A DNA stretch of 58,843 nt from Acidobacteriota bacterium (GTDB taxonomy: Bacteria; Acidobacteriota; Vicinamibacteria; Vicinamibacterales; UBA2999): NCBI GenBank assembly GCA_030650395.1, contig JAUSDY010000011.1, positions 1-58,843 on the forward strand, given 5' to 3'. The position numbers and the translations under genes were made by a program. Positions 4,715 to 57,216 of the stretch are shown here, one piece after another. How positions within the stretch are numbered: the stretch's first letter is position 1; each line of letters starts with the position of its first letter. The notes beneath the pieces were generated by a model, which made no database searches, was not told the origin of the DNA, and was given only the letters and a program-made list of their open reading frames with translations.

Positions 4715-4738
4715 CGCGGAACTAAAGTTCCGCGCTAC
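4715..4738. repeat. CTAAAG-centred palindrome, type B (copy 1)
   Basis: CGCGGAACTAAAGTTCCGCG at 4715-4734 is a perfect palindrome of 9-base arms around a two-base centre, followed by CTAC. Read on the minus strand, the GTAG at its head supplies the TAG stop codon of the beta-barrel gene ending at 4735. The same unit recurs at 8282-8305 and 46822-46868. Confidence 0.85.
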
Positions 4739-8281: not shown

Positions 8282-8305
8282 CGCGGAACTAAAGTTCCGC
8301 GCTAC
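8282..8305. repeat. CTAAAG-centred palindrome, type B (copy 2)
   Basis: CGCGGAACTAAAGTTCCGCG at 8282-8301 followed by CTAC. It is identical over these 24 bases to the copy at 4715-4738 and fills most of the gap between the S9 peptidase stop (8310) and the next start codon (8264), so it would lie in any shared transcript. Confidence 0.85.
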
Positions 8306-8309
8306 ACCG

Positions 8310-10661
<2,352 letters not shown>

Positions 10662-13902: not shown

Positions 13903-16241
13903 GCAGACGACTGACGCCGGCCGTCTTTGACAAGCGCGATCAGCCTCGCGGTGGAGCTGTCGTGTTCGCTCACCGCACCTGCCGAGTCGAGATCCTTCAC
14001 GACCGTGGCGGCGAGCTGCTTGCCGAGCTCCACGCCCCACTGGTCGAACGAATTAATCTGCCAGATCGCACCCATCGTGAACACCTTGTGCTCGTACATC
14101 GCGAGCAGCATGCCGATGGTCCGCGGCCCAAGCTTGTCGTAGAGGATGGTGGTCGACGGCCGGTTGCCCGGGAACACCTTGTGCGGGACCAGCCGCTCCA
14201 ACGCCTCGCCCTTGTAGCCTTGCGCCTCGAGCTCGGTGCGAACCTCGGCTTCCGTCTTGCCTTTCATCAGCGCCTCGGTTTGCGCGATGCAATTGGCGAG
14301 CAGCAGCCGATGATGATCGCCGATCTCGGTGTGGGAGCGGATGCCGGCGAGGAAGTCGGTCGAGATCAAGCGTGTACCCTGGTGCAACAGCTGAAAAAAC
14401 GCGTGCTGCCCGTTGGTGCCGGGCTCGCCCCACACCACCGCGGCGGTCTGTCCGGCCACCACGCGGCCTTCGCGATCGACCCGCTTGCCGTTGCTCTCCA
14501 TGTCGAGCTGCTGCAAGAAGGCGGGCAAGCGGTGCAGGTACTGCTCGTACGGCAGCACCGCGTGGCTTTCGGCGCCGAGCACGCTCGCATACCAGACGCC
14601 GAGCAGGCCGAGCGTGATGGGCACGTTCTGTTGGATCGGCGCGGTGCGGAAGTGCTCGTCCATCAGGTGCGCGCCGTCGAGCAACTGCTCGAAGCGGCCG
14701 TAGCCGACCGCCAGCGCAATCGGCAGCCCAATCGACGACCAGAGCGAGTAGCGCCCGCCGACCCAGTCCCAGAACACGAACATGTTGTCCGGTGCGATGC
14801 CGAACTGTCGCACCTCCGCGTCGTTGGTCGAGATGGCGACGAAGTGCTTGGGGATGGCCTTCTCGTCTTTCGCCCGCGCCAGGAACCAGTCACGCGCCGA
14901 GCGCGCGTTGGCCATCGTTTCTTGTGTGGTGAATGTCTTTGATGCGATCGTGAAGAGCGTGGTGGCCGGGTGCAGCGAACGCAGCGTCTCCGCCAGGTGG
15001 GTGCCGTCGACGTTCGAGACGAAATGCACGCGCGGACCTTCGCGTCCGTACGGCACCAGCGCCTGCGTCACCATCGCCGGGCCGAGATCCGACCCGCCGA
15101 TCCCGATATTCACGACGTCGGTGATGCGCAGGCCGGTGTAGCCGGTCCAGCTGCCGCTTCGGACCGCTTCCGAGAACCGGCGGATGTGCTCGAGCGCGGC
15201 GAGCACGCCGGGCATCACGTCATGGCCATCCACGAGCATGGGCCGGCCCGATCGGTTGCGCAGCGCCACGTGCAGAACCGCGCGGCCTTCCGTGTTGTTG
15301 ATCGGCTCGCCGGCCAGCATCCGGTCGCGCAGCGCTTCGACGCCGGTCTTGCGCGCCAGGCCGGCAAGCGCCGTCATCACGTCGGTCGTAATCAGGTTCT
15401 TTGAGTAGTCGACAAAGAGGTGCTCGCCGACCTTGAGCGAAAAACGATCGGCGCGCCCCGGATCGGCGGCGAACAGATCGCGCAAGTGCTGACGCGGCGC
15501 GAGCGCTGCCAGATTCTCAAGTGGGGACCAACCTTCGTGTGGCGACAAACCTTCGTGTGGCGACAAACCTTCGTGTGGCGACAAACCTTTAGGTTTGTCG
15601 TTCCAAGCCCGAAAGCCGCCATCGAACGCCTTGTCGTTATGCCCGCGCCGAAACGGCGCAGACAGATCCTTGATCAGCCGGACGTTACCGCCGCCCAGCA
15701 CGACATATTCGGCGGCGACCGCGGCGCGCAGCAATTCCGCGCCCTCGAGCACCACGGCGCGCCATTCCTGCTCGCCAAGCTCCTTCAGGCCGCGCTGCCC
15801 GAGCAGATCCTCGAAGGTCTTGTCGCGGAAGGGCAGGTGGGCGAGCTCGAGCGACACGAGGTTGCCCTCGTCCACGAGCGCGGTGCCAAGCCCGGAGCCG
15901 AGGCCGAGGAACAGCATGCGGCCGCCCTCGTAGCTGCCCAGTGCCTGCATGGCGGCGTCGTTGATGACCTTGACCGGCGCGCCGAGGGCGGCCGACCAGT
16001 CGAACCCCACCCAACCTGCGCCGAGATTCCAGGGTTCTTCGAACACCGCGCCGCGAATCACCGGGCTGGGAATGCCAATCGCGACCGCGTCGTAGGTCCA
16101 GTCGGCGGTATGTTGCTTGACGCCCGCCACCACCTGCTGAGGCGTGAACCCGTCGCCCGAATCAAACTTTCGCACTTCGGGGCCGCCCGAGTGCATCAAC
16201 TTGACATGGCTGCCACCGACGTCGATGACCAGGACCTGCAT
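13899..16241 (-). CDS. pgi: Fused polyphosphate-glucokinase-like kinase and glucose-6-phosphate isomerase
   Basis: A 780-residue fusion. Residues 1 to about 213 are a ROK/PPGK-type sugar kinase: phosphate-binding [20 protein letters not shown] and a final VVLGGGN segment. Residues from about 237 are a complete glucose-6-phosphate isomerase with both family signatures ([14 protein letters not shown] and the [15 protein letters not shown] region) and [12 protein letters not shown]. One polypeptide could turn glucose into glucose-6-phosphate and then fructose-6-phosphate. Whether polyphosphate or ATP is the donor is not visible. The two halves are joined at 215-236 by peptide from an inserted element (DKPKGLSP then GLSPHE repeats, DNA 15533-15600). 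Transaldolase diverges from it across 70 bp. Confidence 0.9.
15533..15600. repeat. CTTTAG palindrome type A with 18-bp tandem repeat (copy 1, in the kinase/PGI fusion)
   Basis: Three perfect 18-bp units CTTCGTGTGGCGACAAAC (15533-15586) run into the palindrome GACAAACCTTTAGGTTTGTC (15580-15599). On the coding (minus) strand this is in frame and reads [10 protein letters not shown], then GLSPHE units. It lies exactly between the kinase and isomerase domains. Confidence 0.9.
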
Positions 16242-22387: not shown

Positions 22388-23200
22388 TTAAGAATACCGA
22401 TCGTCAAACCACGGTTCGGCCGTGTCAGAGTAGCCGCGCTCTTCCCAGAAGCCTGGCCGATTCGCCGGGAGGAACTCGATCTTCCGGATCCATTTCGTGC
22501 CTTTCCACGCGTACAGCTTCGGCGTGATCATCCGGCACGGGCCGCCGTGCTCTTGCGGCAACGGCGCGTCTTCCCACGTGTGCACCAGCAAGACGTCGTC
22601 TTCGACGGCGCGCGCGAGCGGCAGGTTGGTCGTGTACCGGATCCGCGTTCCGGGCATGTGGTCATAGCCCGTGCACATCACGAAGCTCGCGTCTGCGCCC
22701 GGGACCGCGGCTTCAGCGATGGTGCGAAAGCGCACACCTTTCCAGCGATTGTCCATCCGGCTCCACGTCGTGACGCAGTGGAAGTCGCTGACGTCCTCTG
22801 CCTGGGGCAGTGCCAGAAACTCCTGCCACCCGATCGTGAATGGATTCTCACAAAGGCCGGCCACTTCGAGCCGCCATTCGTCGAGTGGAACGACGGGGGC
22901 TTCCCCAAGATCGAGCACCGGCCAGTTCGGGACCTCACGCTGGCCCGTTGGCAGCTTGGGCATGCCGTGTCGATTGGTGGGACCGGTGCCCATCGGTTGC
23001 CTGGCTGCCGGATCCCCGGACAAACCTTCCGCCTTCGCGCCAGGCGCTTCCACCTTCGCGCGAAGCGCTTCCACCTTCGCGCGAAGCGCTTCGGCGGACA
23101 AGTCGGCGGACAAGGCCCGGTCCCCAGGCGTCAGGAGCGCGCGTTGCCGCTCGATGTATCTCAGGCGTTTGGCGACCAGGCTGTTGTCGGAATCTGGCAA
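22388..23200 (-). CDS. Sulfite-oxidase-like molybdenum-cofactor oxidoreductase
   Basis: A 270-residue protein with the oxidoreductase molybdopterin-binding fold (PF00174). The Mo-ligand Cys is in DFHCVTTWSRMDN, with CTGYDHMPGTRIRYTTNLP and EHGGPCRMITPKLYAWKGTKW typical of YedY/MsrP-like and plant-type sulfite oxidase-like proteins. No Tat signal is visible, so it is probably cytoplasmic. The substrate is not evident. Oddity: residues 31-62 (SADLSAEALRAKVEALRAKV and onward) are a repeat-derived insert near the N-terminus (23019-23114). It is divergent from the FHA/HD-GYP gene with a 30-bp gap. Confidence 0.8.
   Translation of the reverse strand: MPDSDNSLVAKRLRYIERQRALLTPGDRALSADLSAEALRAKVEALRAKVEAPGAKAEGLSGDPAARQPMGTGPTNRHGMPKLPTGQREVPNWPVLDLGEAPVVPLDEWRLEVAGLCENPFTIGWQEFLALPQAEDVSDFHCVTTWSRMDNRWKGVRFRTIAEAAVPGADASFVMCTGYDHMPGTRIRYTTNLPLARAVEDDVLLVHTWEDAPLPQEHGGPCRMITPKLYAWKGTKWIRKIEFLPANRPGFWEERGYSDTAEPWFDDRYS
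23019..23114. repeat. Type F module with 21-bp tandem repeat, beside a type A half-arm
   Basis: Three 21-bp units (23026-23046, 23047-23067, 23068-23088; consensus CTTCCACCTTCGCGCGAAGC plus G, the first with three changes) are followed by CTTCGGCGGACAAG and a partial second copy. In frame on the minus strand they encode EALRAKV units and two SADL. The plus-strand left edge is GACAAACCTT, the half-arm of the type A palindrome, as if the module had entered at that palindrome's centre. Confidence 0.75.
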
Positions 23201-26967: not shown

Positions 26968-29285
26968 GCCGCACCCCCGTCCCCTTTGCCCCCGATACGC
27001 TCGAAAGCATCCGCCGGGCGTTTCGCGTCGCGGCCGACCGCCGCCACGACCTGGTCAGCCTCGAGCACATGCTGCACGCGCTCAGCGAGGATCCGCAAGC
27101 GCGCGAGATCCTGGCGCGCTGCCGGATCGACCTGACGATCCTGCGGACCGATCTCGAAGAAGTGCTCGACCGCGCGTTCACGCCCGTGCCCGGCCGCAAG
27201 GCCGTCAAACCGGAATCAACGCTCGGCTTCGACCGCGTCGTCGAACGCGCCGTCGTGCATGCGGCCTCCTCCAGCGCGCAGCAAGTCGAGAGCGGCGCGC
27301 TGCTGGTGTTCCTGTTGCAGGAAGAGGAAAGCCACGCGGCCTACTTCCTCCGCAAGCAGGGACTCGATCGGCTGACGTTGCTGAAAGCGATTGCGCATGG
27401 CGGGCCGAAGGAAGGCACGGCGCCCGGCGCCCCCGACGGCGGTGAGTCCGGCGTGCGCGATCCGCTCGAAGCCTACGCGACGGATTTGATTGCGAAGGCC
27501 GCCAAGGGCGCGATCGATCCGCTGATCGGCCGGCAGCTCGAGCTCGAGCGAATGATCCAGGTGTTGGGGCGCCGCCGCAAGAACAACCCGTTGCTCGTCG
27601 GCGAGCCCGGGGTGGGAAAGACCGCGCTGGCCGAAGGCCTGGCGCTGCGGATTCATCACGGTGATGTGCCGGAGTCGTTGCGCGGCGCCAGGGTATTCGC
27701 CCTGGACATGGGCGCGTTGGTGGCCGGCACCCGCTACCGCGGCGATTTCGAAGAGCGCGTGAAGCAGGTGCTCGACGCGCTCGACAAACACGAGCACGCC
27801 ATCCTGTTCATCGACGAAATTCACACGCTGGTCGGCGCGGGATCGGCCTCGGGCGGCACGATGGACGCCGGCAACTTATTGAAGCCGGCCCTGGCGTCGG
27901 GCACCTTGCGCTGCATCGGCTCGACCACCTTCGCCGACGTGAAGCAGTCGTTCGACAAGGACCGCGCGCTCTCGCGCCGCTTCCAGAAGATCGAGGTGCT
28001 CGAGCCGTCGGAAGCTGAGACGATCGAAATCCTCAAGGGCCTGCGGACGGCATACGAGGATCACCACAAGGTGAAGTACTCGGACGAGGCGCTCGAGGCC
28101 GCGGTCTCGTTGTCAAATCGTCATTTGAAAGATCTGCACTTGCCCGACAAGGCAATCGATGTGATCGATGAGGCGGGATCGGCCGCGAAGCTGGCCGACA
28201 AACCTAAAGGTTTGTCGCCACCTGACGGCGTGGGGCCACCTGACGGCGTGGGGCCACCTGACGGCGTGGGGACAAACCTTCAGGTTTGTCCGGAAATCAG
28301 TGTCTCCGACATCGAGCGGGTCATAGCCAAGATGGCGCGCGTGCCGGTGCAGGCCGTGTCGAGCGACGACAAGGTGGCGCTGCGCAACATCGAGACCGAG
28401 CTGCGGGCCGTGATTTTCGGCCAGGACGCCGCGATCGACGAAGTCGCGTCGGCCATCAAGCTGTCGCGCTCCGGGTTGCGGGATCCGAAAAAGCCGATGG
28501 GCAGCTTCCTGTTCGCGGGCCCGACCGGCGTCGGCAAGACGGAGCTCGCGCGGCAGCTCGCGCGCGTGCTGAAAGTGGAATTCCTCCGCTTCGACATGTC
28601 GGAGTACATGGAGAAGCATGCGGTGTCGCGCCTCATCGGCGCTCCGCCGGGCTACGTCGGCTACGAAGAGGGCGGCTTATTGATCGACGCCGTGCGCAAG
28701 GCGCCGCATGCAGTGCTGCTGCTCGACGAGATCGAAAAAGCGCATCCTGACTTATTCGCGATCCTCTTGCAGGTGATGGACCACGCCACGCTGACCGACA
28801 CGCACGGACGGCAGGCCGACTTCAGGCACGTGATCCTGATCATGACGACCAACGCCGGCGCGCGCGATCTGTCGGGCCGCAGGCTCGGCTTCAGCGATTC
28901 CGCGCAGGGTAACAGCAAGGCGACCGGCGTGCTCGAGCGCGCGTTTTCGCCGGAGTTTCGTAACCGGCTCGACGCCACCGTGCACTTCCTGCCGCTCGGC
29001 ACCAGGGCAGTCGAGCTGGTCGTCGACAAGCACGTCGACGAGCTGCGCGCGCTGGTGGCGGCCCGGCGCATTGAGATCGTGCTGGAACCCGCCGCCCGCG
29101 CGTGGCTGTCGGAGAAGGGCTTCGACCGCGCGTTCGGCGCGCGGCCGATGGCGCGGCTGGTTGAGAAGAGCATCAAGAAGCCGCTGTCGGAGCTGCTGCT
29201 GTTCGGCGAGGTCAAGGACGGCGCCCGCGTCGTGGTCCGCCTGGAGGACGGCGCCCTGCGTCTCGCCGTCGACGGCGCCCCATAG
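26964..29285 (+). CDS. clpA: ClpA, ATP-dependent unfoldase subunit
   Basis: A 773-residue Clp ATPase. The Clp N domain spans about 1-150. AAA1 has Walker A GEPGVGKTALAEG and Walker B ILFIDEIHTLVG. AAA2 has Walker A GPTGVGKTELARQ and Walker B VLLLDEIEKAH. RLGF near 637 occupies the position of the ClpP-binding loop. It unfolds ClpS-delivered N-degron proteins into ClpP, which is not in this window. Oddity: residues 412-442 are an in-frame insert made by two type A palindromes around three 18-bp repeats ([19 protein letters not shown] and onward), placed in the variable loop between the first AAA small domain and AAA2. Confidence 0.93.
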   Translation: MSRTPVPFAPDTLESIRRAFRVAADRRHDLVSLEHMLHALSEDPQAREILARCRIDLTILRTDLEEVLDRAFTPVPGRKAVKPESTLGFDRVVERAVVHAASSSAQQVESGALLVFLLQEEESHAAYFLRKQGLDRLTLLKAIAHGGPKEGTAPGAPDGGESGVRDPLEAYATDLIAKAAKGAIDPLIGRQLELERMIQVLGRRRKNNPLLVGEPGVGKTALAEGLALRIHHGDVPESLRGARVFALDMGALVAGTRYRGDFEERVKQVLDALDKHEHAILFIDEIHTLVGAGSASGGTMDAGNLLKPALASGTLRCIGSTTFADVKQSFDKDRALSRRFQKIEVLEPSEAETIEILKGLRTAYEDHHKVKYSDEALEAAVSLSNRHLKDLHLPDKAIDVIDEAGSAAKLADKPKGLSPPDGVGPPDGVGPPDGVGTNLQVCPEISVSDIERVIAKMARVPVQAVSSDDKVALRNIETELRAVIFGQDAAIDEVASAIKLSRSGLRDPKKPMGSFLFAGPTGVGKTELARQLARVLKVEFLRFDMSEYMEKHAVSRLIGAPPGYVGYEEGGLLIDAVRKAPHAVLLLDEIEKAHPDLFAILLQVMDHATLTDTHGRQADFRHVILIMTTNAGARDLSGRRLGFSDSAQGNSKATGVLERAFSPEFRNRLDATVHFLPLGTRAVELVVDKHVDELRALVAARRIEIVLEPAARAWLSEKGFDRAFGARPMARLVEKSIKKPLSELLLFGEVKDGARVVVRLEDGALRLAVDGAP
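28197..28290. repeat. Two type A palindromes around three 18-bp repeats (copy 2, in clpA)
   Basis: GACAAACCTAAAGGTTTGTC (28197-28216), then three perfect units GCCACCTGACGGCGTGGG (28217-28234, 28235-28252, 28253-28270), then GACAAACCTTCAGGTTTGTC (28271-28290). It is in frame; the first palindrome again encodes DKPKGLSP. It is the only copy with a palindrome on both sides. Confidence 0.92.
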
Positions 29286-45619: not shown

Positions 45620-45643
45620 GCGTAGGGACGACCTATACGTGGG

Positions 45644-45663
45644 GACAAACCTTTAGGTTTGTC
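45644..45663. repeat. CTTTAG palindrome type A (copy 3, intergenic)
   Basis: GACAAACCTTTAGGTTTGTC, identical to the copy at 15580-15599. It lies between the LVIVD gene and the NHL gene, 15 bases before a GTG start and just ahead of the ribosome site GGGAGGAGG. A stem-loop here could affect translation of the NHL gene. Confidence 0.85.
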
Positions 45664-45678
45664 CGGGAGGAGGCATCA

Positions 45679-46814: not shown

Positions 46815-48035
46815 TTGCGGGATCGCGGAACTAGCGGGCGTTATCGCGGAACTAGAGTTCCGCGCTACGGGACGCTGGTGGTAATCGCCGTCGGGCTCGC
46901 GCTCGTCGCCCACGCGTTCGCGCGGGTGACGGGCGCGCAGCCTGCGGTGCAAGTGCCGACGTTCGAGGTCGATCCATTGTGGCCCCGACCTCTGCCCGAA
47001 CGCTGGCTGGTGGGCGCCGTAGTCGGCGTTCACGTCGACGCGCGCGACCACGTCTGGATCGTCCATCGGCCCGGGACGCTGCAGCCGAACGAGACCCGTT
47101 CGATCTGGCATGCCGCACCGCCGGTGATCGAGTTTGACCCGGCGGGTAACGTCGTGTCGTCGTGGGGTGGTCCAGGGGAGGGTTACGAATGGCCCGATCT
47201 CGAGCACGGCATCTACGTCGATGACACCGATCATGTCTGGCTGGGCGGCGGCGGCGAGAAGGATGCGCACATCCTGAAGTTCACGCGCCAGGGCAAGTTC
47301 GTGATGCAGATCGGCCGCAAGGGCCAGGGCACCGGCAGCAACGACGTCCGTAATTTGGGCGGCGCGGCCAACATGACGCTCGACCGCGAGGCGAACGAGC
47401 TCTACGTTGCCGACGGCTACGTCAATCACCGCGTCATCGTCTTTGATGCGACAACCGGGGCGTACAAGCGGCACTGGGGCGCGTACGGCAAGAAACCCGA
47501 CGACGCGTACTTCACGAAAGCCGGCGAGAAACTGCCGAGCCCGTTCAGCGGCGCGGTACAGCACGAGAACCGCCCGAGCAATTACGATCCGGCCGGCCCG
47601 CCACCGCCGCAATTCCGGATCGTGCATGTGGTGCGCATCTCGCGCGATGGCCTCGTCTACGTTTGCGATCGCACCAACGATCGCATCCAGGTGTTCCGCA
47701 AGGACGGCACGTTCGTGAAGGAAGCGTTCGTGGCCCGCCAGACCCTTGGCAGCGGCTCGGTCTGGGACATCGGCTTTTCGACGGACCCTGCGCAGACATT
47801 TCTCATGGTTCCCGACGGCACCAACCAGCAGATCTGGATCCTGCGACGCGACACGTTGCAGGTGATGAGCGCGTTTGGACGCGCCGGCCGATGGGCCGGG
47901 CAGTTCTACGGCGCCCACAATCTTGCCGTGGATTCGAAGGGCAACCTCTTCATCACGGAAACCTATGAAGGAAAGCGGGTCCAGAAGTTCGTGTCTCGAG
48001 GCATGGGACCCGCCTCAGCGCCGTTGCTTCAGTGA
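46815..48035 (+). CDS. Secreted NHL-repeat beta-propeller protein with repeat-derived N-terminus
   Basis: About 406 residues. Blades include HVDARDHVWIVHRPGTL, IYVDDTDHVWLGGGGEKD, NMTLDREANELYVADGYVNH and HNLAVDSKGNLFITETYEGK. The hydrophobic core of its signal peptide (LVVIAVGLALVAHAFA) comes directly after a type B palindrome. There is no ATG; candidate starts are TTG 46815, which would translate the palindrome as RGTRVPRYG and give basic residues before the hydrophobic core, or GTG 46878, which lacks them. The insertion may therefore have created the present signal peptide. Its stop overlaps a GTG of the next frame. Confidence 0.78.
   Translation: MRDRGTSGRYRGTRVPRYGTLVVIAVGLALVAHAFARVTGAQPAVQVPTFEVDPLWPRPLPERWLVGAVVGVHVDARDHVWIVHRPGTLQPNETRSIWHAAPPVIEFDPAGNVVSSWGGPGEGYEWPDLEHGIYVDDTDHVWLGGGGEKDAHILKFTRQGKFVMQIGRKGQGTGSNDVRNLGGAANMTLDREANELYVADGYVNHRVIVFDATTGAYKRHWGAYGKKPDDAYFTKAGEKLPSPFSGAVQHENRPSNYDPAGPPPPQFRIVHVVRISRDGLVYVCDRTNDRIQVFRKDGTFVKEAFVARQTLGSGSVWDIGFSTDPAQTFLMVPDGTNQQIWILRRDTLQVMSAFGRAGRWAGQFYGAHNLAVDSKGNLFITETYEGKRVQKFVSRGMGPASAPLLQ
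46822..46868. repeat. Type B palindrome plus a partial copy (copy 3)
   Basis: A partial arm CGCGGAACTAG (from 46824) is followed by the full unit CGCGGAACTAGAGTTCCGCG (46845-46864, centre changed from AA to AG) and CTAC. It lies in the gap after the first NHL gene and is open in the frame of the next one, so it may encode that protein's N-terminus (RGTRVPRYG). Confidence 0.75.
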
Positions 48036-51756: not shown

Positions 51757-51908
51757 GGTGCGTACGGTGCGTACAGTTCCTAAAGTGCGTACTGTGCACC
51801 TGTACCTAGGGTGCCCAAGGTGCCAGGGGACGCCGAGCACCCCTTTAGGCACCCTTGTAACCTCTGCACTGTGCGCACCTAAGGCACTGTACGCACCCCC
51901 AGGCACCT
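51757..51908. repeat. GGTGCGTAC-word hairpin, left of the transglycosylase gene
   Basis: GGTGCGTAC is repeated in 9-base phase, followed by AGTTCCTAAAGTGCGTACTG and GTGCC words. The far side has GCACTGTGCGCACC and CACTGTACGCACC as the inverse. The first 40 bases closely match the start of the repeat at 52597, so the intervening gene is flanked by direct copies. Confidence 0.7.
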
Positions 51909-51953
51909 AGTTTTTGTGGTACGCGCGTTGCAGCCGTCCGATGTGGGTAAACG

Positions 51954-52595
51954 ATGACACCGCCATTCAACAGTTCAGGCGTGCTGGGAGGTCCCGAACG
52001 GCGGCACCTCGACCGTCGCGGCCGGGAACGGAGCGGCCCCGATCGGCGCAAACAAGCCCGGCGGAGACGCACTCGGACCGTGCTGCTGGCGGCGGCCATG
52101 TCATCGGCGCCCGGCCTTCGGCCCATGATCGCCCTCTTCCCAGTCGGCAGTGTCGTCAAGCCGATGGTTGATGTGTCCACCGAGTTCGAAGTCGTGCCCG
52201 CAAAGAAAGCCTACGAAGACATCATCCAGGAAGCGGCCAAGACCTACAATATCGATCCGGCGCTGATCCGTGCCGTGATGCAGGCCGAGTCGGCCTTTCA
52301 TCCCTACGTGGTCTCTCGTGCCGGCGCCGAAGGACTGATGCAACTGATGCCCGATCTCGCCGACGAAATGGGCGTGACCGACTCGTTCGATCCGCGCGAG
52401 AACATCATGGGCGGGGCGCGCTATCTGAAGCAGTTACTCGATCAGCACAACGGCAACATCGCGTTGACCCTGGCGAGTTATAATGCCGGCCCCGGCAACG
52501 TCAAGCGTTACGGCGGCGTGCCGCCTTTCAAGGAAACGCGCACCTACGTCAAGAAGATCAAAGCCATCCTCAAGCGCGATCAACCCGCGGATTAG
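51954..52595 (+). CDS. Lytic transglycosylase (SLT domain)
   Basis: A 213-residue protein. A basic, disordered N-terminus (about 15-42) and one hydrophobic segment (about 43-65, TVLLAAAMSSAPGLRPMIAL) suggest membrane anchoring. The SLT goose-lysozyme-like domain follows, with the catalytic Glu in VMQAESAFHP, then GLMQLMPDLADEMG, GARYLKQLLDQHNGN and LASYNAGPGNVKRYGG. It should cleave peptidoglycan between MurNAc and GlcNAc. It is bounded on both sides by related hairpin repeats. Confidence 0.88.
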   Translation: MTPPFNSSGVLGGPERRHLDRRGRERSGPDRRKQARRRRTRTVLLAAAMSSAPGLRPMIALFPVGSVVKPMVDVSTEFEVVPAKKAYEDIIQEAAKTYNIDPALIRAVMQAESAFHPYVVSRAGAEGLMQLMPDLADEMGVTDSFDPRENIMGGARYLKQLLDQHNGNIALTLASYNAGPGNVKRYGGVPPFKETRTYVKKIKAILKRDQPAD

Positions 52596-52596
52596 A

Positions 52597-52733
52597 GGTG
52601 CGTACGGTGCGTACCGTTCCTAAGGGTGCGTACTGTGCACTGGTGCAGAGGGTGCAGAGGTGCAGCGGTACCCGGCACTGTTGGCACCAAAGCACCGCAC
52701 GCACCCTTGGAACAGTACGCACCGTACGCACTT
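52597..52733. repeat. GGTGCGTAC-word hairpin, right of the transglycosylase gene
   Basis: It starts one base after the stop codon: GGTGCGTAC twice in 9-base phase, CGTTCCTAAG, GGTGCGTACTGTGCACTG, then GGTGCAGAG units. The inverse is GTGCGTACTGTTCC read from the far end. It is very similar to 51757-51908 in the first 40 bases and different in the loop. Confidence 0.7.
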
Positions 52734-52754: not shown

Positions 52755-54425
52755 ATGAGCACTACTGCGGCCGCAGTCGCGCGAGCCTTAGCTAACGCGG
52801 GGATCGAGCGTGTCTTCGGATTGCCGGGCGGGGAAGTCCTGGTCCTGATCGACGAGTTGCGGCGCGCGGGCGTGGACTTCGTCCTGATGCGTCACGAGGC
52901 CAACGCCGGCATCGCGGCGGCGGTCTACGGAAAACTGCGCGGCCAGCCTGGTGTGGTGCTGGCCACGCTCGGTCCGGGCGCGGCGAACCTGATGCTGCCG
53001 CTCGCGAGCGCGCATCTCGATCAGGAGCCGCTGCTGGCGATCAGCGCGCAACTGCCGGACGAGTTCCCCCCCAGCCACACGCACCAGCTGCTGCCGTTAC
53101 ACGACGCCTATCGCCCAATCTGCCGGCTGGCGGGAAAGATCACAAGCGAGAATGCCGGCGATCTCGTACCGCAAGCCCTCGCCGCGTGCATGGAGAGGCC
53201 CCACGGCGCCGCATACCTGACGCTGTCCGCCCGAGAAGCCGTGAAGCCCTTCACAAGTGGCGACAACCCCATCTTGTCCGCGGACTTGTCCGCCGAAGCG
53301 CAAGGCGCGAAGGTGGACGCGCGCACGCACGCCGCCGATCTGCGCCGCCTGCTGCAGAAGGCGGAGCGTCCTCTGGTGCTGATCGGGCTTGGCCTCAACA
53401 CGGCCAACGCGTCGCGCCTCCGTCAATGGCTCAATGACTGGAACCTGCCCGTCGCCGTGACGCCGAAAGTGAAAGGCATCGTCGACGAGACCGCCGCCAA
53501 CTTCGTCGGCGTCATCAGCGGGATGGCCGCCGACGGCTTGATGGTTGATGCCTTGAAGTCCTCGGACTTGCTGATTGGCTTCGGCCTCGATCCCGTCGAG
53601 GTCGACAAACTCTGGCACGCCGAGCTGCCGATTCACTGGGTGCTCGAAGCGCCGAATGTCGGCGGCATCGTCCCGGCCGGTGTCGAGCTCGTCGACCATG
53701 CGGAGATACTCGAGGTGCTGACCTCGTACCCCCCGCCGCGGCGGTGGGCCGAGCCGTTCGCGGAAACTCAGAAGAAACGCCGGGACTTGTTGACCGCGTC
53801 ACCCGGTGCCGCGCCGCGTAGAGGCGGGTCTTCCACCTTCGCGCACAGCGCTTCGGCGGACAGGTTAGACCCGCCTTCAACGATGTGGCCGGGCGAGATC
53901 ATCACGTCGCTCGCTGACGCGGTGCCCTCATCCACGATCGTGACAACCGATGTCGGCTCGCACAAGTATCTGTTCGGGCAGTTCTGGCCGAGCCGTCATC
54001 CCGGGACGTTCTGGATGTCGAACGGCTTGTCGGGCATGGCCTACGGACTGAGCGCGGCGATCGGCGCGAAGCTCGCGTGCCCCGATGTGCCCGTGCTGTG
54101 CGCGGTCGGCGATGGCGGCTTCTCGATGAACGCGCAGGAACTGGAGACGGCCGAGCGCGTCGGCGCGCCGTTTGTGACTGTCGTACTCGAAGACGGCAGC
54201 TATTCGCTGATCAAGCTGGCACAGGAAGGCAGGAAGCTCGAGCCGTACCGCATGGACTTCCGGCCGATCGATACCGTGAAGATGGCGGAGGCCTGCGGCG
54301 TCGCGGCGCTTCGTACCGCCAATCCTGACGAGCTCGCGACGGCGGTGCGTAGCGCGGTCGAGAGCGGCCGCAGCCTGGTCGTGGCCGTGCCGGTCAATTA
54401 CGAGGACTACCGCCTGCTGTTTTGA
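52755..54425 (+). CDS. Thiamine-diphosphate enzyme, acetolactate-synthase-like
   Basis: A 556-residue ThDP enzyme. The N-terminal PYR domain (about 1-165) has the catalytic Glu in RHEANAGIAAAVYGK. A central domain (about 190-330) and a PP domain with GDGGFSMNAQELETA and then VVLEDGSYSLI (the ThDP/Mg site) follow. It resembles acetolactate synthase large subunits and related decarboxylases; without ilvN or ilvC nearby the reaction is uncertain. Oddities: residues 173-190 (ILSADLSAEAQGAKVDAR) and 357-375 (SSTFAHSASADRLDPP) are repeat-derived, from the same module in opposite orientations, and fall at the two domain linkers. Confidence 0.8.
   Translation: MSTTAAAVARALANAGIERVFGLPGGEVLVLIDELRRAGVDFVLMRHEANAGIAAAVYGKLRGQPGVVLATLGPGAANLMLPLASAHLDQEPLLAISAQLPDEFPPSHTHQLLPLHDAYRPICRLAGKITSENAGDLVPQALAACMERPHGAAYLTLSAREAVKPFTSGDNPILSADLSAEAQGAKVDARTHAADLRRLLQKAERPLVLIGLGLNTANASRLRQWLNDWNLPVAVTPKVKGIVDETAANFVGVISGMAADGLMVDALKSSDLLIGFGLDPVEVDKLWHAELPIHWVLEAPNVGGIVPAGVELVDHAEILEVLTSYPPPRRWAEPFAETQKKRRDLLTASPGAAPRRGGSSTFAHSASADRLDPPSTMWPGEIITSLADAVPSSTIVTTDVGSHKYLFGQFWPSRHPGTFWMSNGLSGMAYGLSAAIGAKLACPDVPVLCAVGDGGFSMNAQELETAERVGAPFVTVVLEDGSYSLIKLAQEGRKLEPYRMDFRPIDTVKMAEACGVAALRTANPDELATAVRSAVESGRSLVVAVPVNYEDYRLLF
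53273..53317. repeat. Type F module, sense copy in the ThDP enzyme
   Basis: From CTTGTCCGCGGACTTGTCCG to GCGCGAAGGTGGA. It encodes SADLSAEAQGAKVD, matching SADLSAEALRAKVE of the sulfite-oxidase-like gene (23019-23114). It lies between the PYR and central domains. Confidence 0.75.
53823..53875. repeat. CTTTAG-type palindrome (type I) with a type F module nested at its centre
   Basis: Outer arms GGCGGGTCT (53823-53831) and AGACCCGCC (53867-53875) are perfect, with GTAG just to the left. If the inner sequence is removed they meet as arm-TT-arm, the standard plan. The inside, CCACCTTCGCGCACAGCGCT then TCGGCGGACAGG, is a type F module, antisense to the gene. It stays in frame. Confidence 0.75.
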
Positions 54426-54609: not shown

Positions 54610-57216
54610 ATGGGGAAACAGATGCGCTTGGCCCAGAACGGGATCCGTGGTCTGCTTGGACTGCGCTCGCACGCGCGGCGTGTATCTGTTTTTGCGCTCG
54701 TCCTGATCGGCGTCGCCGCGGTCGCGCTCACCAGCGTTCAGATTTCAGCCAGGCAAGCCCCGTCGATCTCTCCCTCCACCGCTGCGGCGGTTGCGCCTCA
54801 AGCGGTCTTGGAGAAGTACTGCATCGGCTGCCACAATCAAAGACTCCGTACTGGCGGGCTCGCGCTCGACAGTCTGGACACGACAAAGCCTCAGGCCAAA
54901 TCGGAGGTGTGGGAGCGTGTGGCCTCCAAGCTGCGCGCGGGATCGATGCCCCCGCCGGGGAGACCGCGGCCAGACGCGGCCACCTCTGACGCCGTGGCCG
55001 GCTGGTTGGAGACCGAAATCGATCGGGCATGGGTCGCCAATCCGAATCCTGGCCGGACCAACGCGGTCCATCGTCTCAATCGTACGCAATACAACAACGC
55101 CATCCGTGATCTGTTCGCGCTCGATCTCGACGTGAAGACGCTTCTTCCCGGAGATGACACCGCAGATGGGAGTTTCGACAACTTCGCGGATGTCCTCACC
55201 GTGTCCACGTCCCATCTCGAACGCTACCTGTCGGTCGCGCGCCAAGTGACGCGGCTTGCGACCGGTCTGCCTCCCGTCAACCCGGGGCTCGAGACATTCG
55301 AGATTCCTCTCCATGTCGTGCAAGACGACCGCCAGAGCGAGGACCTGCCCTTCGGGTCTCGTGGCGGCATCGCGATTCGCTACCACTTCCCGGCCGCGGG
55401 CGAGTATCTCGTCAAGGTTCGGCTCCGGCGGCAGTATCAGGACTACCTCATGGGGATGGGGTGGCCGCAGCAACTCGACGTGCGCCTGGACGGCAAGCTG
55501 CTGAAACGGTTCACCGTCGGCGGCGGCGCCAAAGGCCGGCCCGCCGCGGCCAGCTACGCGGGCGACGGCGAACCCAATTTCGCGGGCGACCCCTCGTGGG
55601 AGGAATACATGCAGGTCGGCGGCGACGCCGGCCTCGACGTGCGGGTGCAGGCCGTCGCCGGCCCCGGCGTGATCGGCGTCTCGTTCGTGCGGGAACTGTG
55701 GGAGCCGGAAGGGCTGCCGCAACCCGAGCAGCGCGGACGCGTCCTCACCAACGATGAGGTGTACATGGGGTACGCGAGCGTCGGCAAGGTCGACATCGCG
55801 GGGCCGTACCGGGTCTCCGGGCCGGCGAAGGACACGCCGAGCCGCCGCGCGATCTTCGTCTGCGAACCGCGGCTGGTGTCGGACGAGCGCGCCTGCGCCA
55901 CGAAAATCCTGACGCGGATGGCCCGGTTCGCCTATCGTCGTCCCGCGACCGCGCCGGACGTGCAAACGTTGCTCGAGTTTTTCGCCAATGGCCGACAGGA
56001 GGGCGGCAGCTTCGACGCCGGGATTCAGTTCGCCTTCGAGCGCATGCTCGTGGACCCGGACTTCCTGCTTCGTGTCCATCGGGATCCGCCCTCGTCACGA
56101 CACGACAAACCTAAAGGTTTGTCGCCACCTGGACAGGGCGCCCGACAGGACGGGACGGGACACGCCGCGTATCACTTGAGCGACATCGATCTCGCGTCCC
56201 GCTTGTCGTTTTTCCTGTGGAGCAGCATCCCCGATGAGACACTGCTCGAGGTCGCCGAGCGCGGACAACTCACGCGCCCGGCGGTGCTCGAACAGCAGGT
56301 CCGGCGGATGCTGGCCGATCGCCGCGCCGCCGATGCACTCCTGCACGATTTCGCCGCGCAGTGGTTGAACCTGCGCCGTCTCGGCGACGTCGTCGTCCAT
56401 CCGGATTTCTATCCCCTGTTCGACGCCAGCTTGCTGCAGGCGTTCGAACAGGAAACGGAACTGTTTGTGGCCAGCACCATCCGCGAGGACCGCAGCGTGC
56501 TGGATCTGCTGCGCGCCAACTACACCTTCGTCAACGAGCGGCTGGCGCGCCACTACGGCATTCCAGGCATCTACGGCAGCCGTTTTCGGCGGATCACCCT
56601 GACGAATCTCGACCAACGCGGCGGATTGCTCGCGCACGGCGCGCTCCTGGCGACGACGTCATACCCCGATCGCACCTCGCCGGTGCTGCGCGGCAAGTGG
56701 CTCCTGGACAATATCTTCGGTCAGCCCGTGCCGCCGCCCCCGCCGGGTGTGAACACCACGCTGCCGGAAGCAAAGCCCGGCACCGTGCCGCCCACCATTC
56801 GCGAGCGCCTGGCCCAACACCGGCAAAACCCCACGTGTGCCAGTTGTCATGCCGTCATCGATCCGCCGGGCTTCGCGCTGGAGAATTTCGACGCGATTGG
56901 CGGCTGGCGGACGAAGGACGAAATGGGCAGGCCCGTGGATGCGCACGGCACCACGGTGAACGGTGCCAGCATCGAGGGGCTGTCCGGCCTCCGCGCGGCG
57001 TTGCTCGATCGGCCCGGGCGCTTCCCCGGCACCGTGACCGAAAAGCTCCTGGCGTACGCGCTGGGACGCCCGCTCGACTACTACGACCGAACGACCGTAC
57101 GCAGAATCGTGCGCGACGCGGCGGCGACCGACTACCGCTGGTCGTCGCTCATCCTGGGAATTGTCAAGAGTCCCACGTTCCAGATGCGGGCGGCGGCGCC
57201 AGCGGCGACTCACTGA
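54610..57216 (+). CDS. Cytochrome c protein of the DUF1587/1592/1595/1588/1585 family
   Basis: An 868-residue exported protein. A hydrophobic segment (about 26-43) is followed by a cytochrome-like heme site CIGCH at 71-75, DUF1587 (about 135-200; HRLNRTQYNNAIRDLFALDL), a carbohydrate-binding-like stretch, DUF1595, DUF1592 (about 520-640; DIDLASRLSFFLWSSIPDE), DUF1588 with a second CxxCH (CASCHAVIDPPGFALENFDA), and DUF1585 at the end. The family is common in Planctomycetes and Acidobacteriota and is usually paired with DUF1552, as here; its role is unestablished. Oddity: a type A palindrome adds DKPKGLSP at 499-506, just before DUF1592. Confidence 0.88.
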   Translation: MGKQMRLAQNGIRGLLGLRSHARRVSVFALVLIGVAAVALTSVQISARQAPSISPSTAAAVAPQAVLEKYCIGCHNQRLRTGGLALDSLDTTKPQAKSEVWERVASKLRAGSMPPPGRPRPDAATSDAVAGWLETEIDRAWVANPNPGRTNAVHRLNRTQYNNAIRDLFALDLDVKTLLPGDDTADGSFDNFADVLTVSTSHLERYLSVARQVTRLATGLPPVNPGLETFEIPLHVVQDDRQSEDLPFGSRGGIAIRYHFPAAGEYLVKVRLRRQYQDYLMGMGWPQQLDVRLDGKLLKRFTVGGGAKGRPAAASYAGDGEPNFAGDPSWEEYMQVGGDAGLDVRVQAVAGPGVIGVSFVRELWEPEGLPQPEQRGRVLTNDEVYMGYASVGKVDIAGPYRVSGPAKDTPSRRAIFVCEPRLVSDERACATKILTRMARFAYRRPATAPDVQTLLEFFANGRQEGGSFDAGIQFAFERMLVDPDFLLRVHRDPPSSRHDKPKGLSPPGQGARQDGTGHAAYHLSDIDLASRLSFFLWSSIPDETLLEVAERGQLTRPAVLEQQVRRMLADRRAADALLHDFAAQWLNLRRLGDVVVHPDFYPLFDASLLQAFEQETELFVASTIREDRSVLDLLRANYTFVNERLARHYGIPGIYGSRFRRITLTNLDQRGGLLAHGALLATTSYPDRTSPVLRGKWLLDNIFGQPVPPPPPGVNTTLPEAKPGTVPPTIRERLAQHRQNPTCASCHAVIDPPGFALENFDAIGGWRTKDEMGRPVDAHGTTVNGASIEGLSGLRAALLDRPGRFPGTVTEKLLAYALGRPLDYYDRTTVRRIVRDAAATDYRWSSLILGIVKSPTFQMRAAAPAATH
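56104..56128. repeat. CTAAAG palindrome type A (copy 4, in the DUF1592 cytochrome)
   Basis: GACAAACCTAAAGGTTTGTC at 56104-56123 followed by GCCAC, the same 25-base unit as in clpA and the kinase/PGI fusion, and in the same reading frame (DKPKGLSP). There is no tandem repeat at this site. Confidence 0.9.

Follow-up and report, generated by a model that had tools for sequence, protein, structure and literature searches.

The mechanisms by which REPs are disseminated are described as poorly understood (Corneloup et al. 2021, PMC8266576), and several described systems bear on the locus considered here, where a 33-nt hairpin module, designated F, lies within palindromes of other families (hosts A, G, H and I). 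The GTAG REP families surveyed by Di Nocera et al. (2013, PMC3733652) resemble the present elements: they are short palindromes with a tag, many of them have TY-type loops of two bases, and copies lie within genes. In the relevant sections of that survey, GTAG-23 elements of T. roseum are placed within small palindromes, many A. variabilis GTAG-15 and all H. neapolitanus CGTC-1 dimers within longer palindromes, and GTGG is a stated variant of the tag. However, those sections do not describe the outer palindromes as REPs of several families, nor do they show bare and nested orthologs or a REP within itself, and the tag of F is CTTG or CCTG as against the GTAG or CGTC of the surveyed REPs. The palindromic elements of Rickettsia, as cited in PMC3733652, are, like some copies here, found in frame in genes likely to encode functional proteins, whereas nesting in other palindromes is not mentioned in the citing passages.

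In the REPtron, or TnpA-REP (RAYT), system described in PMC8266576, an unpaired tetranucleotide precedes the hairpin, as it does here, and REPs take two shapes, bulged (like F) or short and perfectly palindromic (like hosts A, G, H and I). TnpA-REP acts on single-stranded hairpins, and the E. coli enzyme cleaves at C|T. The present case differs in that an enzyme is tied to the REP there and none to F here, and in that the F junction is not exactly C|T; insertion into the tip of another REP is not described for TnpA-REP in the corresponding parts of that article.

REP palindromes also serve as landing sites for insertion sequences, among which Tobes and Pareja (2006, PMC1525189) list IS1397, IS621, ISKpn1, ISPpu9/10 and ISRm22. 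The choice of target is shared with F, ISRm22 entering at the symmetry axis, but in the account given there these insertion sequences are gene-bearing, whereas F is a 33-nt hairpin and itself REP-like. The GC clusters of yeast mitochondria, as presented in PMC4478555, are likewise short mobile palindromes with an AG target and with merger and shuffling of units; they differ in belonging to eukaryotic mitochondrial DNA, and the pertinent text of that paper gives no link to REPs. REPs inside other palindromes (PMC3733652) and REPs as targets of insertion sequences (PMC1525189) are already known from these sources, and the portions of the literature that were searched yielded no case, with orthologs, of one REP lodged at the tip of another. 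The addition made here is a REP-like hairpin that resides in itself and at the tips of four or more REP-like families, both states being seen at orthologous sites and a gene carrying in-frame copies.

F inside a host palindrome of an acetolactate-synthase-like gene

The window, that is, the whole stretch of 58,843 nt that was analysed, is contig C139 (G000:C139) of the source genome G000 (5.41 Mb, 180 contigs), and the closest relative compared is designated G001; further G, C and L numbers denote genomes, contigs and loci, respectively. The features of the gene that carries the nested palindrome are as follows.

52755..54425, + strand: intact 556-codon gene of the TPP-enzyme / acetolactate synthase large-subunit kind, with two intragenic insertions, both in frame
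53273..53284, + strand: left half of an F, CTTGTCCGCGGA, which reads as degraded F-in-F
53285..53317, + strand: F module in another linker of the gene, exact copy (L104)
53818..53821, + strand: GTAG tag, 5' of the outer hairpin at its foot and separated from the left G arm by one base; the same tag stands before many G copies
53823..53831, + strand: left arm of host palindrome G, GGCGGGTCT
53832..53864, - strand: F module of 33 nt, inserted here and missing at the corresponding site of G001; on the - strand it reads as CCTG plus an imperfect hairpin
53865..53866, + strand: two-base apex (nn) of host palindrome G, here TT
53867..53875, + strand: right arm of host palindrome G, AGACCCGCC

An initial annotation of this DNA had described 53823-53875 as an F module inserted into the loop of another palindrome, whose arms would meet if the inner sequence were removed, and both statements are borne out. 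The G arms are perfect, 9 nt each, and enclose 35 nt, namely F (33 nt) and TT; when the 33 nt are taken out, GGCGGGTCT-TT-AGACCCGCC remains, the G form that is present in G000 in 48 bare copies (GGCGGGTCT-nn-AGACCCGCC; reversed control, 0). The F copy at this site is a variant (CAGG for CAAG) and stands outside the set of 30 exact copies considered below. By DNA folding, the composite is predicted to form one hairpin, of which the centroid structure retains only the outer arms and the inner stem.

In G001, whose ortholog of the gene is 78 percent identical, the site is occupied by a bare palindrome, CGTAGAGGCGGGTCT-TC-AGACCCGCC, and the arm spacing differs from that of G000 by exactly 33 nt, or 11 codons; this bare palindrome supports insertion. 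Four further species were aligned at the site: G005 and G007 are without a palindrome, G008 is without a recognisable one, and G002 carries a palindrome with a related core and other stem letters. F would have landed in a G palindrome already resident in the acetolactate-synthase-like gene, and post-hoc nested insertion of F is regarded as very highly probable.

The product of the gene matches Pfam TPP_enzyme_N, _M and _C, all above cut-off, and its top NCBIfam match, under the curated cut-off, is acetolactate synthase large subunit. The F codons, 360-370, fall between the central and the C-terminal domain matches. Another linker of this TPP enzyme (53258-53330) holds F (53285-53317) in G000, and in G001, G005 and G002 it carries palindromes of another kind (GGGCCCCCC-type or similar); it is an insertion-tolerant spot that has been used repeatedly. 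Large compound palindromes of GGTGCGTACTGT / ACAGTACGCACC with GCACC units lie at 51757-52731 of the window, and no likeness of these to hosts A, G, H and I or to F was seen.

Structure, hosts and junction of F

Read on the other strand, F has the form CTTG-TCCGCC-GAA-GCGC-nnn-GCGC-GAA-GGYGGA, with single changes in a few copies, and DNA folding predicts four unpaired bases, a 6-bp stem, a 3x3 internal loop, a 4-bp stem and a triloop. The tip triplet takes 17 different forms among 30 exact copies. F shares with REPs an imperfect hairpin after a conserved tetranucleotide; its tag, CTTG or CCTG, is not of the GTAG or CGTC kind, and it is for this reason called REP-like and not a GTAG or CGTC REP. 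The hosts other than G have the forms GTGG-SGACAAACCT-nn-AGGTTTGTCS (A), GTAG-CGCGGAACT-nn-AGTTCCGCG (H) and GGAG-AGCGGGGGCT-nn-AGCCCCCGCT (I), and a bare host is predicted to fold as a plain hairpin behind an unpaired tag. With 114 bare copies of A in G000 (reversed control, 0) and the bare G copies counted above, A and G are repeated genome-wide in the manner of REPs, i.e., palindromes of 20-50 nt in many copies, and a REP-like tag, GTAG (G, H), GTGG (A) or GGAG (I), adjoins 22 of 23 nested hosts. Besides the gene described above, the window contains the following bare palindromes and one further array of F.

4715..4734, - strand: bare host H (CGCGGAACT-nn-AGTTCCGCG, GTAG tag)
8282..8301, - strand: bare host H
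9176..9197, - strand: bare GGAG-tagged palindrome, GGCGATGGCT-nn-AGCCATCGCC
15579..15600, + strand: bare host A, GTGG tag
23019..23027, + strand: left half-arm of host A, GACAAACCT; a whole bare A stands here in G001
23028..23114, - strand: serial F-in-F, with three left and two right F halves, the right arm of the host being lost
28196..28217, - strand: bare host A
28270..28291, + strand: bare host A, GTGG tag
45643..45664, + strand: bare host A, GTGG tag
46845..46864, - strand: bare host H
56103..56124, - strand: bare host A

No F was seen in members of the GGCGATGGCT-nn-AGCCATCGCC family. On the syntenic contig C77 of G001, four of the bare-host places (15579, 28196-28291, 45643 and 46845) have no such host, which indicates that the hosts themselves turn over. 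The left half of host A (GTGGCGACAAACCTTC...) is repeated in tandem in the window near 15530-15600 and in G000:C14:10650-10705, and GTGGGG-CCACC repeats lie between the two A copies at 28196-28291.

A genome-wide census covered all 30 exact copies of TTCGCGCNNNGCGCTTCGGCGGACAAG in G000. With an arm test, in which the 9 bases before the two preceding F are compared with the 9 after F and pairing at 8 or 9 of 9 counts as a pass, 23 of the 30 passed, against 16 of 20,000 random gap-33 positions in the same loci. Reading of the flanks assigned these 23 to hosts A (17), G (2), H (2) and I (2). Five of the 30 (L092, L094, L102, L103 and L112) lie inside another F, at CCGA|AGCGC or CCGG|AGCGC, and some of these form three-layer nests, such as F in F in G (L092, L094), bringing the nested exact copies to 28 of 30. 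The remaining two are L104 (the 53285 copy), which resembles degraded F-in-F, and L101, which has no assigned host. The inspection of F flanks proposed in the initial annotation therefore finds 28 exact copies nested, and unrelated flanks are not the majority. The two other places in the window at which F had been annotated also proved real: at 53273-53317 a half F stands directly before an F, and the array at 23028-23114 directly follows the half-arm GACAAACCT of type A, as had been claimed, at a site where the relative G001 has a bare type A palindrome. This array reads as four layers with parts lost. Beyond that annotation, it is found that F nests in itself, that it stands in frame in an intact gene, and that its hosts are tagged GTAG, GTGG or GGAG like REPs.

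The initial annotation had also named a TT|TA centre as the preferred insertion point. The preference for the apex holds, but the position named is displaced by about one base: with F read as CTTG...GGA, the junction follows the two apex bases on their 3' side (nn|AG). In the orientation of F, the host apex is TT in 22 of the 23 arm-passing exact copies and TC in one, and the A(F) composite is predicted to fold as one long hairpin with a 6-nt bulge. F lies in the tag orientation of its host in 22 of these 23 copies, one being undecided; for 4 of the 22 a loose reverse tag fits as well, and, judged by apex letters, 8 of the 29 listed G000 inserts in hosts G and A, including 53823, are opposite to the host tag. 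The orientation bias is thus not absolute.

Searches with host arms gave a consistent length. G arms (GGCGGGTCT..AGACCCGCC) stand 12-42 nt apart at 12 places in G000 and 12 in G001, with none in the reversed control of either genome; an F-type module lies between them at 9 of the 12 G000 places and 3 of the 12 G001 places, the remainder being neighbouring G copies. The G composites measure exactly 53 nt in 8 of 9 and 3 of 3 cases, respectively, and the exception, with a module related to F, measures 51 nt. Pairs of A arms with a spacing of 15-45 nt were found at 61 places in G000 and 34 in G001 (reversed control, 0), with F between them in at least 20 cases in G000 (41 of the 61 places listed) and in 10 in G001 (all 34 listed). 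All 30 A(F) composites among the places listed are exactly 53 nt with arms, and the other listed pairs (21 in G000, 24 in G001) are neighbouring A copies with common arms, not nests.

Other inner modules were also observed. At G000:C57:34244-34294, G also harbours a nested module that is akin to F yet distinct from it (51 nt with arms), and more than one family may accordingly use host tips. At L001 1501-1596 (G000:C1:12597-12692), the G arms exactly enclose another hairpin, AT-rich and 78 nt long (TAACAAATAACCAATAACCAAGT...); G001 has no G at this site.

Open frames of at least 250 codons, with at least 50 codons open on each side, span 21 of the 30 F sites, a figure to be taken as an upper bound for intragenic F because GC-rich DNA has long chance frames. 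The 9 sites without a frame open for 50 codons on both sides are all nested, so that tolerance by genes alone does not explain the nesting.

Orthologous sites in related genomes

Bare and nested states were compared between G000 and G001 at 17 sites, which were chosen where orthologous DNA was in hand and not at random. The comparison set 41 loci of G000 against 20 stretches of G001 and 10 named loci, with 10 pairs aligned; L114, L119, L121 and L122 were counted with G001, where nested F copies lie at matching places. In the reverse comparison, 7 nested G001 loci were sought in G000 (the G001 locus L176 being left out of the query), and 6 of the 7 gave a G000 ortholog, L178 giving none.

At 5 of the 17 sites one species has a bare host and the other a nested F. 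Four of these are nested in G000 and bare in G001, namely 53823, L096, L103 (= 23019), where the G000 side is rearranged, and L107, where the right flank is not alignable; one, L159/L184, is nested in G001 and bare in G000. The inter-arm difference is exactly 33 nt at 53823, L096, L107 and L159. Four sites (L088, L089, L097 and L071/L182) are nested alike in both species, and at one more, L170/L179, F is nested in both species in opposite orientation, for which two insertions or an inversion are needed. The whole composite is missing from one species at 4 of the 17 (L083, L086, L166 and L172). The last three have no clear class: L001, L008, with several G copies in G001, and L177/L183, with neighbouring A copies in G000.

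The direction of change can be approached at L096. Here both G001 and G002 are bare, and G003, G004, G006, G007 and G008 are empty. G002, taken as the outgroup by its lower identity (about 68-69 versus 76 percent), has a bare A-like palindrome (G002:C45) in which a change in the stem is compensated on the other arm (GGACCAACCT / GGGTTGGTCC), as would be seen had the hairpin been kept or had the copy come from a sister family. Because G001 and the more distant G002 are both bare, the simplest reading is that F was gained in the G000 line; gain is supported, from sequence comparison, at this one site. At the L184 site, where G003 and G007 also gave matches, the three outgroups aligned (G002, G004 and G008) are empty.

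A slightly wider F pattern finds 14 copies in G001, 3 in G004, 2 in G005 and 1 in G007, all of the same genus, and none in G002, G003, G006 and G008. Among these 20 F copies of other same-genus genomes, 12 pass the arm test. Of those that fail, L160, L161, L168 and L173 are solitary copies, whose flanks cease to agree with one another immediately beyond CTTG...GGA, and L162, L165 and L174 have something like one host arm; L171 fails as well. The nested motif occurs in 10 stretches of three named genomes (RIFCSPLOWO2_12_FULL_67_14b, 7; nzgw81, 2; Baikal-deep-G12, 1), which makes an assembly artefact of one genome unlikely. Other genera gave short F-like matches, and a tighter pattern applied to five loci found clear F only in the same-genus L054, nested in G.

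Candidate enzymes and alternative readings

The reading preferred here, which as a whole and with a RAYT-type agent included appears fairly probable, is that F is a 33-nt REP-like miniature mobile element that inserts at the apex of resident REP-like hairpins. The mobile unit would comprise a 5' unpaired tetranucleotide (CTTG/CCTG) and an imperfect hairpin whose internal loop is GAA/GAA and whose tip triplet varies. An HUH enzyme would insert it into single-stranded hairpin tips, at nn|AG of resident palindromes tagged GTAG, GTGG or GGAG; no target duplication was seen at F insertions. F may also enter the unpaired GA|AG of another F and thereby give telescoped hairpins. The product would stay one longer hairpin with a 6-nt bulge and, in genes, would add 11 codons with no frame shift. 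The nesting, the exact junction and the bare and nested orthologous states are directly observed; recognition of the target as an extruded hairpin's tip in single-stranded form is inferred.

Genes for Y1-type transposases occur in each of the 9 genus members that were searched. The single one of G000, G000:C1:102855, matches Pfam Y1_Tnp above cut-off, and its only family match, to NF047646 REP_Tyr_transpos, reaches 61.4 bits under a curated cut-off of 80; hence it is called RAYT-like. Copies of A occur within 1.5 kb of this gene and of two RAYT-like genes of G001, though not on both sides, and a scan of 30 loci out of 44 Pfam matches, which covered family cores and exact hairpins up to 1.5 kb away, found no RAYT with F on either flank at once. 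As no RAYT is firmly tied to F, insertion by an HUH enzyme is put forward as an interpretation, in which a transposase of the RAYT/TnpA-REP type is a credible candidate for the agent, held with slightly less than even confidence. Cleavage at C|T, as by the E. coli TnpA-REP, was considered as a junction rule and rejected, the F junction being CT|n on the other strand, one base off.

Two further RAYT-like loci were noted. The gene at L036 (G008:C10) is flanked by arrays of GGAG-tagged REPs at 810-1386 and 1965-2226, in opposite orientation on each side and with 12 and 6 exact hairpins; this GGAG-AGCGACGGCT REP has the core GCGACGGCT-nn-AGCCGTCGC and the same CT-nn-AG tip. L036 is a REPtron in form, and the REP there is not one of hosts A, G, H and I. 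At L024 (G006:C133), an F-like copy at about 323-372 is placed 111 nt beyond a RAYT-like gene's stop codon and outside the GGGTCTGGCACC / GGTGCCAGACCC inverted repeats near the ends of that gene, which is too little to tie a RAYT to F.

Other readings concern the unit that moves, the direction of change, the agent and the choice of site. A composite G(F) or A(F) might be one element moving as a unit, with the arms as its terminal inverted repeats. This agrees with the absence of whole composites from the relative at 4 of the 17 sites, and with the I(F) copies L090 and L091, which share an identical tip triplet and common bases just right of the host and look copied whole. It is opposed by the 5 orthologous sites at which the host is bare in one species and contains F in the other, and by the occurrence of identical F in four hosts with unlike stems, in itself and alone. 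At 53823 the bare G001 ortholog rules it out, and as an account of F in general it has little probability, even if a few composites (L090, L091) seem to have been copied whole. It is also improbable that F was ancestral in the hosts and that its precise loss left the bare palindromes. Excision by IS200/IS605-like enzymes can be precise, which fits such a loss; moreover, 4 of the 5 bare/nested sites are without an informative outgroup, and at 53823 and L159/L184 the aligned species other than G000 and G001 either have a different palindrome or are without the same host. However, the bare state of L096 in both G001 and the more distant G002 takes two losses as against one gain, and the opposite F orientations at one orthologous site (L170/L179) also speak against loss.

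The single exact junction and length across hosts that share little beyond CT-nn-AG, together with the biased orientation, look enzymatic and count against a spread of F by replication template switching between hairpins, or by gene conversion, without a transposase. Given that hairpins promote template switching, that no dedicated F enzyme was found (30 of 44 RAYT loci scanned) and that tandem half copies of host A are present near 15530-15600, this route is considered unlikely but far from negligible. Very little probability attaches to the suggestion that F inserts anywhere and that only copies in palindromes, as harmless places, survive. Both linkers of the 52755..54425 gene do tolerate several different palindromes across species, and 4 of the 20 F copies in other species stand alone; nevertheless, the 9 of 30 F sites without an open frame are all nested, the non-coding DNA of G000 outside palindromes is not used, and survival would not hold the junction to one base.

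Insertion of a mobile F at hairpin tips may, more tentatively, be extended to a view of F as a hyperparasite of REPs. Its own single-strand-specific enzyme, which is a candidate only, would recognise the extruded tip of any REP hairpin, irrespective of the stem sequence, as well as the stem of F itself, and REP hairpins would grow by serial tip insertion, with in-frame gain of peptides as a by-product.

For the movement of REPs, this genus supplies insertion events with exact junctions, several of them with the states before and after insertion. The use of hairpin tips as targets points to a mechanism that acts on folded single-stranded DNA, and the in-frame copies offer a natural route by which short peptides enter protein linkers with the reading frame unbroken.
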